Source of the DNA: Enterococcus mundtii | Lineage (GTDB): Bacteria; Bacillota; Bacilli; Lactobacillales; Enterococcaceae | Length of the DNA stretch: 64,000 nt | Direction: 5' to 3' | NCBI RefSeq assembly: GCF_013394305.1 | Contig: NZ_AP019810.1 | Coordinates: 1,404,501-1,468,500 of the forward strand | Program-made: the position numbers and the translations under genes | The notes under the pieces: model-generated | What the model was told of the DNA's origin: nothing | Databases searched by the model: none | Seen by the model: the letters and a program-made list of their open reading frames with translations, nothing else | Part shown: positions 5,954-12,106 of the stretch, one piece after another | Numbering within the stretch: the stretch's first letter is position 1 | How the letters are laid out: each line of letters opens with the position of its first letter

Positions 5954-6529
5954 TCACTCATTATAATCTTTCAGATGTTTTTTTATCTTATATTTCACTC
6001 GACCGTAAGCGCTTTTTATTTGCTTCAGATCCATTGATAATTCTCTCTCCATCTCGCTAAAATCATTGCCTTGCATGTAATGTTGAAAGATTTTTGCCTC
6101 TTTTGATGAGAATTTGATATCACAGTCCTCGAAAGCTTCTTTTAATAGTAATTGTTGCATCGCAACAGGTTCTTGGATGGTGATCTCGGCTAAAAAATCT
6201 GGTCCTTCTGTCGCTATTTTTTGTTCAATAGAAATTTCATTTTTTTGGTCTCGACGTTTTAGCGCGTTTTGCTTACGCAATAAAGAGTAGATTTGGTTAC
6301 TGATAATACTTTTGTAATAACTCCCAAAACTGACACCTTTATTATTTTCGTACGTTTTAAGTGCTTGATATAGAGCAATCCTTGCTTCTTGTTCCCAATC
6401 TTCACTTACATAATTCCTTAGATAATAAATATTTTTCAACCGTAATAATAACGGGAAATATTTTTGATACAGCATAGAAAATGCTTCTTCATCTCCATTA
6501 CGGGCGGCGCACAATAACTCCTCGGACAT
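5954..6529 (-). CDS. sigH: SigH/ComX-like alternative sigma factor
   Basis: 191 aa from ATG 6529 (MSEELLCAARNGDEEAF). Region 2 is clear: AFSMLYQKYFPLLLRL, then EDWEQEARIALYQALKTYE and SFGSYYKSIISNQIYSLLRK. Region 4 is weaker (FSSKEAKIFQHYMQGNDFSEM). Identity as the sigH orthologue is supported by position: cysS-mrnC-rlmB-yacP-sigH is the B. subtilis order. In B. subtilis SigH starts sporulation and competence genes; the enterococcal regulon is not established. A longer frame from 6577 lacks a ribosome site. The site used, GGAGGA at 9 nt, lies inside the 3' arm of a perfect hairpin (6536-6566), so translation is probably controlled. Confidence 0.82.
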   Translation of the reverse strand: MSEELLCAARNGDEEAFSMLYQKYFPLLLRLKNIYYLRNYVSEDWEQEARIALYQALKTYENNKGVSFGSYYKSIISNQIYSLLRKQNALKRRDQKNEISIEQKIATEGPDFLAEITIQEPVAMQQLLLKEAFEDCDIKFSSKEAKIFQHYMQGNDFSEMERELSMDLKQIKSAYGRVKYKIKKHLKDYNE

Positions 6530-6535
6530 AAAATA

Positions 6536-6566
6536 ATTCCTCCATAACTTTCGATTATGGAGGAAT
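6536..6566 (-). promoter_or_regulatory. RBS-sequestering hairpin in the sigH leader
   Basis: On the mRNA strand ATTCCTCCATAA (6566-6555), 7-nt loop, TTATGGAGGAAT (6547-6536): a perfect 12-bp stem. The whole Shine-Dalgarno GGAGGA lies in the 3' arm, paired with an anti-SD TCCTCC in the 5' arm, and the sigH ATG follows 6 nt after the stem. This would keep sigH translation off until melted (by heat, a protein or a coupled ribosome). The A/T-rich tail could also make it a weak terminator. Confidence 0.75.
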
Positions 6567-6606
6567 CTTACCATCAATTCATTGAATAACTAATCGTATC
6601 TGGCTG

Positions 6607-7137
6607 TTATTTTTCTTTTCTCATTAAATCGTCCAATTTTTGGGACAATTTTTCTAATTGTTCTTCATTCCACGGAGAATTTCGTCGAAAATCAATAAAA
6701 CGCATATTTATATTATCTTGGGTAATATTTTTTTCTGTTTTTTTGATTGTTTTATATAATTCGTACGCGGAAGTTCGTAAGGCACCTTGTGAAAAAATCA
6801 CCCATTGTTCCGCTAAGTCACTCGTTGCGACAGTCACTTGCGTCAAACGAGTATTCAACTCTCCAGCGATCCGCTCGATATACGTATCTGCCGTTTCATC
6901 CTCTTTTGTGAAAACAACTTCTAATTGGTATTTTCGATAATTTTGTTGGATACCCGGCACTAATTGTGCATCAAAGACAACGATTACTTCTAGGCCTTCA
7001 TATTTTGCATAATTCGATAAACGATGCAACAAGGCTTCTCTGGCATCCGCCATTTTATCTTGCTTTTTCAGTGCCACTAATTCCGGCCAAGAACCGATCA
7101 TATTATAGCCATCGACGATCAACAGCTGCTTCTTCAT
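6607..7137 (-). CDS. yacP: YacP/Rae1-type NYN-domain endoribonuclease
   Basis: 176 aa. The N-terminus KQLLIVDGYNMIGSW is the NYN/PIN-like metal-binding aspartate motif; further acidic positions appear in VIVVFDAQ and EDETADTYIE. The family member Rae1 in B. subtilis cleaves mRNA in the ribosomal A site. Start ATG 7137 is 3 nt after the rlmB stop, using a G-rich ribosome site inside the rlmB 3' end, so the two are coupled. Within the conserved cysE-to-sigH cluster. Confidence 0.9.
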   Translation of the reverse strand: MKKQLLIVDGYNMIGSWPELVALKKQDKMADAREALLHRLSNYAKYEGLEVIVVFDAQLVPGIQQNYRKYQLEVVFTKEDETADTYIERIAGELNTRLTQVTVATSDLAEQWVIFSQGALRTSAYELYKTIKKTEKNITQDNINMRFIDFRRNSPWNEEQLEKLSQKLDDLMRKEK

Positions 7138-7140
7138 GCC

Positions 7141-8004
7141 TTATCCCCCCTGACGCTGAGAAAAAGCCTGATACATCAGTAGCCCAGCCGCAACACTCGC
7201 GTTCAAGCTTTGAACATGACCGACCATAGGGATCGTTAACAACTCATCCATTTCTTTCTTCAAGCCTGCACTCATGCCACGACCTTCGTTACCGATCACT
7301 AACGCTATCGATCCTTTTGCATTCCATGATTGGAAATTCGTTCCTTCCATATCCGTTCCGAATACCCAAAATTGTTGCTCTTTTAGCTGCTGGACAGTTT
7401 GAACTAAGTTTGTCACACGAGCCACTGGCACGTATTCAACGGCGCCTGTCGATGTTTTCGTCACGATTGGCGTGATTCCGACTGCGCGATGTTTAGGAAT
7501 GATGACACCGTCCACCCCACTGGCATCTGCCGTTCGTAAAATCGAACCAAAATTGTGAGGATCTTCGATACTGTCCAAGATCAAGAAAAAGGGTGTTTCC
7601 GTTTTGCTCTTCGCCTGTTCCAATAGTTGATCCAACGTCAGATATTCATAAGGCGTGATGGCCAATACCACCCCTTGATGAACACCACGATCACTCAGTA
7701 GGTCTAATTTCTGCTTAGGCACCCACTTGACCGGCACCGATTGTTCTCGAGCAATATTTTTCAACTCTTCAACCTTGTCGCCCCGTGAATCTTCTTGGAG
7801 GAACAATTTATTTCCACGACCTTGTTGCAAAGCTTCGACTGTCGCATGATGACCAAATACAAAATTGTCTTCACTCGTTGTGTCCTCTTGACCAACATAA
7901 ACTGTTTCCTTCTTGGCACTACGTTTCTCATTGCCTTTTGTAAAACGTTGAGAATCTTTTTTGTTTCGTTTTTGATAATTACGTTCTTTATTTTCTTTCC
8001 TCAT
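7141..8004 (-). CDS. rlmB: 23S rRNA (guanosine-2'-O-)-methyltransferase RlmB (TrmH/SpoU family)
   Basis: 287 aa. The lysine-rich N-terminal tail is followed by the L30e-like substrate-binding domain ([15 protein letters not shown]) and a SPOUT knot with the three SpoU motifs: [28 protein letters not shown] and [17 protein letters not shown]. It uses SAM to 2'-O-methylate a guanosine in 23S rRNA. Start ATG 8004 with AGG(TGA) 8 nt before; a GTG at 8013 is less well placed. Overlaps the mrnC 3' end by 17 bp. Confidence 0.92.
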
Positions 8005-8392
8005 GGGTTTCACCTACTTTCTCAATACACCAATTGATCAATTCTTCCATACGTTCGGTTTGTTTTGTTAGATGTAAGTAGCCCATCAAGGCTTCAAACC
8101 CTGTTGCAACGCGATAAGTGGTAATATCCGCATTTTTTGCACTCGTATGGCTTTTGGCATTTCTACCCCTGCGATAGTAAAGTTCTTCATTTTCTGTTAA
8201 CAGGTTTTCTTGCAACATTTGTTGGATCAAAAAAGCTTGTGCCTTTGCCGAAACATAGTGTGTCGCTGCTCGGTGCAGTTTATTCGGCTTTGTTTCACCT
8301 TTTTCAATCAAGTAATCTCGAATATAGATTTCGTAGATAGCATCTCCAACATAAGCAAGTGCTAAACCATTTAGTTGTGTATGATCTCTCAT
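7988..8392 (-). CDS. mrnC: Mini-ribonuclease III
   Basis: 134 aa. RNase III-type catalytic domain without a dsRNA-binding domain: [21 protein letters not shown] carries the acidic catalytic helix, and [11 protein letters not shown] the second. It matures 23S rRNA ends. Start ATG 8392 overlaps the cysS stop as ATGA, with GGAGAAG about 8 nt before. Part of the cysS-mrnC-rlmB-yacP coupled operon. Confidence 0.93.
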
Positions 8393-10387: not shown

Positions 10388-10620
10388 AAAAAACGTCTTT
10401 TAATAAGTTTCCTTATTAAAAGACGCTATGAGGCGTGGTTCCACTTTTTTTCATAATCAAATGATTATCTCTAACAGGTAACGTCTGCTATTCGTTCTTC
10501 GCTACTTTCAAGGATTGAGATTGATCAACCCCCTCTTCGCAAAGACCACTCCCAGAGGCATTTCAAAAAAGAACAATTGACAACTTACACCACCCGTTGA
10601 CTCTCTTGAAACCATTCTTT
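10388..10620 (-). ncRNA. T-box riboswitch, cysteine-specific, upstream of cysE-cysS
   Basis: On the minus strand: stem I landmarks AGAGAG and GGGUGGUG; then GAAAUGCCUCUGGGAGUGG, where UGC (10560-10558) is in the usual specifier context, matching Cys; then the T-box core GUGGAACCACGCCUC (10444-10430). A terminator follows (CGTCTTTTAATAAG / CTTATTAAAAGACG, 10425-10394, 14 bp with loop GAAA) and a T6 run. Uncharged tRNA-Cys should favour the antiterminator and switch on cysE-cysS. Limits are approximate. Confidence 0.93.
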
Positions 10621-10645
10621 TTTTACTTCTTTCTGTTCATCGTGT

Positions 10646-12106
10646 TTAGTTCAATACTTGGTTTAAATGTGCTAAAGATTTTTCTTTTCCTAACAATTCG
10701 ATTGTTTCTGGTAATTCAGGTCCATGCATTTGTCCTGAAACAGCGACACGGATCGGCATAAACAGGTTCTTTCCTTTTACCCCTGTTTCTTTTTGTACTG
10801 CTTTGATTGCTGCTTTGACTGTTGGTGCATCTACCACTTCCATTTGAGTAAGTTGTTCTTTGAAAGCTTTCAACACAGTCGGAACCGTTTCACCCGCTAA
10901 TACTTCTTTGGCTGCTTCATCTAATACAGGATGTTCGTTAAAGAATAATGTTGATACTTCAACGATTTCCGCTGCATAACTCATTTGTGGTTGGTACAGA
11001 CGAACAATTTTTTTCACCCATTCGATTGTTTGTGCATCTGGATTTTCTTGCACACGACCATCAGCGATCAAATAAGGTAAACACATTTCTGTCAATGCAT
11101 CTAGATCCATTTCTTTGATGTAATGGTTGTTCACCCATTGTAATTTTTTTGCGTCAAATGCTGCTGGTGATTTGCTCAAGCGCTGTGGATCAAACATTTT
11201 GATCAATTCTTCTTGACTGAACAATTCATCTTCACCGACAGGCGACCAGCCTAGTAAAGCAATAAAATTGAACATCGCTTCTGGTAAGTAGCCTAATTCA
11301 CGGTATTGTTCGATAAATTGTAAAATCGATTCATCACGTTTACTTAATTTTTTGCCCGTTTCAGAATTGATGATCAAGGTCATATGCCCAAATGTTGGCG
11401 CAGTCCAACCAAATGCTTCATAGATCATTAATTGTTTTGGTGTATTCGCAATATGATCATCCCCACGTAATACGTGAGTGATCTTCATTAAGTGATCGTC
11501 AACAGCTACCGCAAAGTTATAGGTTGGCATACCATCGCGTTTTTGGATGACATAATCCCCACCGATATTGTCTGATTCAAAGGTGATATCTCCTTTGACC
11601 ATGTCGGTAAACGCATATTCTGTATTGCGCGGCACACGGAAACGAATCACTGGTACAATACCTTCTGCTTCTTTTTTCGCTTGTTCTTCAGGTGACAAGT
11701 TCGCACAAGTCCCAGCGTAGTGAGGCATTTCGCCACGCGCACGTTGCGCTTCACGTTCTGCTTCTAATTCTTCTTCTGAACAATAGCATTTGTAAGCACG
11801 ATTGCTTGCTAATAACTGATCGATCCATGGTTGGTAGATTTCTTTTCTTTCAGATTGACGGTAAGGACCGTATTCACCTGGATTTTCAGGTGATTCATCC
11901 CATTCCATCCCTAACCATGCAAGATTCTCTAATTGGCTTTTTTCGCCATCTTCAATATTTCGTTTTTGGTCAGTGTCCTCAATGCGGATAATGAAATCTC
12001 CATCATTGTGACGGGCAAATAAATAATTGAATAATGCAGTTCGTGCATTCCCAATATGCAAATGCCCTGTTGGACTTGGTGCATAACGTACGCGTACTTT
12101 CGTCAT
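10646..12106 (-). CDS. gltX: glutamate--tRNA ligase
   Basis: 486 aa. Class I GluRS: HIGN at 17-20 ([14 protein letters not shown]), KLSKR at 253-257, zinc-type cysteines C107, C109 and C134. In Firmicutes lacking GlnRS this enzyme also charges tRNA-Gln. Start ATG 12106 behind GAGGAAG. Transcription that starts at the gltX promoter probably also runs into the Cys T-box, as no other promoter for cysE is evident. Confidence 0.97.

Follow-up and report, generated by a model that had tools for sequence, protein, structure and literature searches.

How enterococci keep sigma factors of the SigH/ComX type switched off is a question that the leader of one such gene may help to answer. In an enterococcal transcriptome study, all sigma factor genes except sigA and sigN are described as not expressed in the conditions of that study (PMC7724050). 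Here we analyse the leader of a sigH-like gene in a stretch of 64,000 nucleotides of Enterococcus mundtii (contig NZ_AP019810.1; the whole stretch is hereafter called the window). The original prediction for this locus described a perfect 12-bp hairpin in which the Shine-Dalgarno sequence (SD) GGAGGA is fully paired with an exact anti-SD copy, with the ATG 6 nt beyond the stem. The sequence of the minus strand is as described. The question is what a hairpin that seals a ribosome binding site does in front of a sigma factor gene.

The product of the gene has a Pfam Sigma70_r2 match and resembles the SigH models, with scores under their curated cut-offs (NF006147: 67.6 vs 212 bits; TIGR02859: 62 vs 294.8). 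As the scores are under these equivalog cut-offs, 'sigH' is a fair label and not a formal assignment. In the collection searched, the closest named relatives are Enterococcus mundtii (99% protein identity), villorum, durans, ratti and lactis. The gene ends a run of same-strand genes headed by a T-box leader; between the T-box and rlmB lie genes that we take, from their translations, to be cysE, cysS and mrnC. The gap between yacP and sigH measures 77 nt, and 39 nt lie between the yacP stop and the 5' arm of the hairpin. The sigH reading frame is open through the hairpin as far as a TTG at 6577, and an in-frame ATG at 6574, if used, would add 15 residues.

Table 1. Features of the sigH locus, in positions of the window
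Feature	Position	Strand	Basis or remark
sigH-like sigma factor gene, 191 aa	5954..6529	-	ORF; Sigma70_r2 and SigH-type models
sigH start codon ATG	6529-6527	-	inner ATG of the ORF
SD-sealing hairpin	6535..6567	-	5' arm 6567-6554, loop 6553-6549, 3' arm 6548-6535
SD GGAGGA	6538..6543	-	wholly within the 3' arm, 8 nt before the ATG
Predicted transcription start, A	6558	-	seventh letter after the -10, just past the anti-SD
Anti-SD TCCTCC	6559..6564	-	also the six letters between predicted -10 and +1
Predicted extended -10, TG (6573-6572) and TAAGAT (6570-6565)	6565..6573	-	motif conserved across genera
yacP (NYN domain), upstream neighbour	6607..7137, stop 6609-6607	-	PF05991, 186.7 bits
rlmB, gene upstream of yacP	7141..8013	-	TIGR00186, 265.2 bits
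T-box leader heading the gene run that ends at sigH	10416..10649	-	RF00230, 121.3 bits

On the minus strand, the hairpin consists of GATTCCTCCATAAT (5' arm), CGAAA (loop) and GTTATGGAGGAATT (3' arm). The perfect Watson-Crick stem pairs ATTCCTCCATAA with TTATGGAGGAAT; the RNA fold lengthens it by G-U ends to 14 pairs around the same loop. A piece of 49 nt folds with -18.6 kcal/mol (z -4.8), and none of 200 dinucleotide shuffles is equally stable; in a context of 121 nt, z is -2.5 and 4 of 200 shuffles are as stable. We compared this leader to 192 starts that have a perfect SD of 5 nt, drawn from 464 kb of this genome, namely the window plus 20 stretches of 20 kb. An uninterrupted Watson-Crick helix across the whole SD is absent at 190 of these starts, spans 5 bp at one and 12 bp at sigH. 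As the sole start with such a helix longer than 5 bp, sigH bears out the claim that the stem is far stronger than chance. With partition functions, the SD exposure is below 0.05 at 10 of the 192 starts, sigH included, and below 0.25 at 46, and sigH is the only start below 0.001. The exact hairpin is single-copy in the genome (3 mismatches in the next closest matches), and no exact match was found in viral contigs; a mobile or phage repeat was rejected on these grounds. No Rfam 15 family reaches its gathering score at the sigH leader, where the hits are sub-threshold chance hits, and the sole match in the window is the T-box. A known RNA family was thus rejected as well.

To follow the hairpin beyond this genome, we collected leaders from the same genus (g1; genera, leaders and genomes are numbered g, L and G), the same family and the same order. 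In the genus, the gene is present in 16 of 16 genomes, 15 of them with upstream DNA. The stem over the SD is kept in all 15 leaders, although the DNA that separates yacP from the hairpin differs among them; inner stem and loop are variable too, with inner pairs partly broken in L006 and L009. In the family, the gene was found in 105 of 106 Enterococcaceae genomes from 17 genera (G066 has no match). We read 104 leaders (L007 lacks upstream DNA) and scored 99, excluding L025, L075, L093, L102 and L103 for want of a clear -10. We placed the start codons manually in L032, L041, L057, L058 and L087, and the -10 positions in L024, L034, L061, L065, L068 and L072. From other families of the same order we took 60 stretches; L198, in which no start was found, and stretches with a weak SD were skipped, leaving 54.

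We observed that in most genera a hairpin again lies over the SD, with letters that are unrelated between genera. For instance, the pair that covers the SD is TCCTCC/GGAGGA in g1, CTTTTCATC/GATGAAAGGAG in g17, CCAAGCATT/AATGCTTGGAAGGAG in g13 and CACTCCTCTCA/TGAGAGGGGTG in g3. SD exposure from partition functions is below 0.05 in 64 of the 99 family leaders and below 0.25 in 90, compared to 6 and 15 of the 54 leaders from other families; 12 of the 15 scored genera include at least one leader below 0.05. Among the 85 distinct family leaders, 53 are below 0.05 where 7.2 are expected, and 76 are below 0.25 where 29.0 are expected, the expectation coming from dinucleotide shuffles of the DNA upstream of the SD alone. 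Occlusion is weak in g6 (0 of 4 leaders below 0.05), g14 (0/1), g16 (0/1), g8 (1/3) and g4 (2/10). A helix count that permits G-U pairs was positive in 97 of 104 leaders; we judged it too permissive and left it unused.

Furthermore, compensatory changes were found in g13, where ten hairpins chosen by eye were analysed. Two-sided changes affect 4 of 15 pairs (shuffled mean 1.9, as high in 11 of 500 shuffles) and amount to 7 cells (shuffled mean 2.8, as high in 0/500). The covariation score of 0.295 exceeds the shuffled value of 0.228 (0/500 as high), further pair types number 12 compared to 10.8 (55/500 as high), and every slid control is lower. Free energy and conservation of the leader had been named with the original prediction as checks. 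In line with its proposal, the hairpin, which pairs the SD far beyond chance in a conserved arrangement, should make SigH synthesis conditional. Letters of the arms or the loop that might serve as a binding site are not conserved across genera; the parts that are conserved are promoter-like and SD-like.

The promoter-like part is a motif TGnTAnnnT, which sits where the 5' arm begins on its outer side (in g3, in the loop) and reads TGnTAYGCT in many genera and TGnTAAGAT in most of g1. The motif was chosen by score alone, blind to the letters that follow, and the leaders were aligned on it. Leaving g3 out of the count of start letters, we found a purine at place 7 after the motif in 62 of 64 distinct leaders (A in 46, G in 16). 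The six letters between the motif and this purine, which hold the anti-SD, are 81-92% pyrimidine in the same 64 leaders. Judged by these letters, the arrangement looks like an extended -10 followed by a discriminator that is the anti-SD and by a +1 inside the hairpin. At the sigH site, a simple promoter scan gives no entry, no -35 is evident in g1, and in g3 the -10 is uncertain, the predicted start falling within the SD in L071, L080 and L088. Measured from the yacP stop, the predicted -10 ends after exactly 42 nt in 14 of 15 g1 leaders, 17 of 22 g13 leaders and the single leaders of g2 and g16, with differing letters.

The original prediction had taken a transcription start inside the hairpin as evidence against a regulatory stem. 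Such a start, at A6558, is what the comparison predicts; it does not void the hairpin, which is given another job, namely the silencing of RNA that arrives from upstream.

Further upstream, an (A)AATGAGA box stands exactly 18 nt before the TG in some leaders of g4 and in those of g5, g6, g7, g8, g10 and g17 (e.g. L048, L059, L070 and L090), and the letters in between vary. The box may act as a -35 of unusual sequence or as a site for an activator. The strict pattern ATGAGA-N18-TGnTAYGCT was found in 23 of 105 genomes, none of them in the window's genus, compared to 1 of 105 genomes with a control spacing of 21 Ns. As 18 of these 23 matches lie, by coordinates, at sigH itself, the strict pattern is nearly specific to this gene, and a wider regulon was rejected. 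We also rejected autoregulation by SigH, a weak negative: the candidate box at comGA, GCGTAY, differs from the TGnTAYGCT of sigH and is missing from the genome of the window (L156). Of 35 comGA stretches, 20 have GCGTAY a short way ahead of the SD (e.g. L139, L163 and L171), where it is a candidate for a SigH-dependent -10. In G101, the comGA leader (L145) carries a tandem duplication of the leader plus the first codons.

We then computed how free the SD is in RNAs with different 5' ends. For the window, 5' ends at 6680, 6620, 6580 or 6568 give a probability of a free SD of 0.0003-0.0005, and later ends give 0.02 (6564), 0.07 (6561), 0.37 (6559) and 0.32 (6558). Lacking the anti-SD, an RNA from A6558 thus has a freer SD (0.32) than read-through RNA (0.0003). 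Across the family (99 leaders, of which 96 contribute at the predicted start), mean exposure is flat at 0.20-0.22 up to the end of the -10, reaches about 0.6 within six letters and then stays steady; in the window's genus, the exposure in the short RNA is only 0.23-0.52. As a control, ordinary leaders were cut 28 nt before the start, which raised their mean exposure from 0.44 to 0.60, and with the same cut 9 of the 10 occluded starts of the own genome, sigH included, pass 0.25. Since ordinary leaders also gain when cut, the gain in exposure alone is not specific.

We conclude that the sigH leader is probably a read-through-silencing leader with a predicted promoter nested in its hairpin, which would insulate sigH from the operon in front of it. 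Polymerase leaking from rlmB and yacP would copy both arms, so that the hairpin forms, the SD is locked and no SigH is made. The gene's own extended -10, which reaches into the beginning of the 5' arm, would instead start an RNA at about A6558; this RNA would be free of the anti-SD TCCTCC and would expose its SD. We infer the promoter, its start site, the read-through from yacP and the resulting translation from the arrangement of the letters and the computed folding. As promoter discriminator and anti-SD are the same letters, SigH would depend only on its own promoter. If this is true, the hairpin is a filter on the origin of the RNA and not a sensor that waits to be opened, and the search for an inducer shifts to the promoter of sigH, and with it to the AAATGAGA box found at a fixed distance in several genera. 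Should the T-box run be induced by amino-acid starvation, SigH would be shielded from this response by the lock. For the Enterococcaceae as a whole, we put forward a broader reading more tentatively, at somewhat less than even chances: the discriminator would be the anti-SD throughout, one element would serve as promoter part, as transcript-origin filter and, where a U run follows, as terminator, and most genera would have built this insulator anew from unrelated letters, leaving SigH blind to the operon.

Other readings of the hairpin have to be weighed against this one. The strong and conserved seal of the SD in enterococcal leaders is also what one would see if the hairpin were a regulated translational lock on a main sigH mRNA that starts upstream and is opened in some cells by an RNA, a protein or a growth state, as proposed for sigH of Staphylococcus aureus (PMC3486894). 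We regard this as unlikely, given that no letters of the arms or the loop are conserved across genera as a binding site, that the 5' arm shares letters with the promoter-like motif and that the purine at place 7 is left unexplained. The original prediction had offered heat, a helper RNA or a coupled ribosome as triggers, and none of them finds backing here. The SD does lie within a hairpin, as in an RNA thermometer, but its computed exposure goes from 0.0001 at 37 C to no more than 0.0002 at 50 C and 0.0019 at 70 C, and a stem closed in silico up to 70 C led us to reject heat. A helper RNA meets with the same missing binding letters and with an Rfam search in which no family reached its gathering score at the leader. 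Coupling was rejected because yacP ribosomes stop 39 nt short of the 5' arm, from where a terminating ribosome should not melt the stem. A thermometer or a lock opened by yacP ribosomes is therefore very improbable. We give hardly any credence to a chance or mobile inverted repeat, with a sequence unique in the genome, no exact match in viral contigs and an arrangement conserved in the family, and just as little to a hairpin that is part of a longer protein from the ATG at 6574: the frame is open in the window, but it is lost in L010, L011 and L015, so that a conserved upstream start was rejected.

The hairpin could also be primarily an intrinsic terminator, or attenuator, of the yacP operon, with occlusion of the SD as a by-product of its position. 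The hairpin of the window is terminator-like by scan, and under a loose rule 25 of 104 leaders carry a U run behind the SD hairpin, most clearly in g17, g10, g7 and g12. Yet only 4 of the 14 pairs in the window's stem are G-C and its tail is ATTTTATG, the scan gives 3 sites in the region compared to 2.1 expected by chance, and most leaders with an occluded SD have no U run, e.g. those of g5 and most of g3 and g13. This reading thus appears quite improbable; where a U run does follow the hairpin, read-through RNA may also be terminated there. Between yacP and sigH, the scan lists no further terminator-like site. In other leaders, terminators are found apart from the SD hairpin: a stem with TTTTTTT stands just before the promoter-like motif in L046, L052, L053, L057 and L058 of g4, where occlusion is weaker (exposure 0.16-0.45), and strong terminators also occur in L097 and L099 (g6), L063 (g3), L073 (g7) and L020, L022 and L031 (g13). 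Within g6, L097, L099 and L100 combine weak SD occlusion with a terminator of long stem and T run, placed between yacP and the promoter motif. Leaders with a strong terminator, a set picked by hand (dG -11 or lower and at least 7 T in 8; L025 fits but is unscored), have a median SD exposure of 0.19 (n=13) vs 0.003 in the others (n=86; one-sided p 0.0007, uncorrected for kinship). The higher exposure in the presence of an upstream terminator looks as if either device suffices to silence read-through.

Lastly, we compared the read-through-silencing leader proposed here to known systems. The original prediction held that the control of such factors in enterococci is largely unexplored. This fits our literature search, which covered open articles and found no paper on the sigH leader in enterococci. 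It does not extend to S. aureus, where the sigH repeat has already been studied by experiment (PMC3486894). As in our leader, a perfect repeat of 12-13 bases lies there just before the start codon of a SigH-type factor, seals the ribosome binding site and represses SigH (PMC3486894, PMC9072672). A perfect 13-base inverted repeat was found to seal the site, and deleting one half of it is reported to give SigH activity in all cells, whereas the native leader behind a foreign promoter was active only in a minor fraction of the cells and in one medium; the authors suggest sequestration and leave a small RNA possible (PMC3486894). Thus, the lock is experimental there and predicted here, the letters differ, and the parts of that report considered here describe no nested promoter. 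In the passage considered here from a paper on SigH of L. sakei (PMC3364868), we found no leader hairpin. In nine genomes of the family f17, which we guess to be staphylococcal, hairpins lie near several sigH-like starts, and in L324 and L320 they contain -10-like letters (TATGAT and TATCCT), a hint of nesting that is weak given the AT-rich loops. The reading proposed here, if true, offers a second and testable explanation of the S. aureus repeat, and the same device might underlie the silence of sigH in staphylococci.

Parallels to the proposed logic come from two other genes. In B. subtilis, sigG (spoIIIG) is, like our gene, a sigma factor gene behind another operon, and a large hairpin is proposed to keep read-through RNA from being translated; transcripts of the gene's own promoter are unable to form it (PMC5942855). 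In contrast to our gene, sigG encodes a sporulation factor and is transcribed by sigma-F and sigma-G, its hairpin has at least 20 bp, and a second, small hairpin at the ribosome binding site damps the RNA from its own promoter (PMC5942855). In the lysozyme gene e of phage T4, the DNA that encodes the 5' strand of an SD-sealing hairpin contains a late promoter, so that the long early RNA is silent (about 100-fold) and the short late RNA is translated; unlike here, this is a phage gene with T4 late promoters and not a sigma factor gene, and its start sites and structure are experimental (PMC3014915). The hairpin of enterococcal sigH is thus most likely a transcript-origin filter of the kind described for T4 gene e and sigG, and its leader would be a variant within the known kind of read-through-silenced leaders, with a predicted nested promoter.
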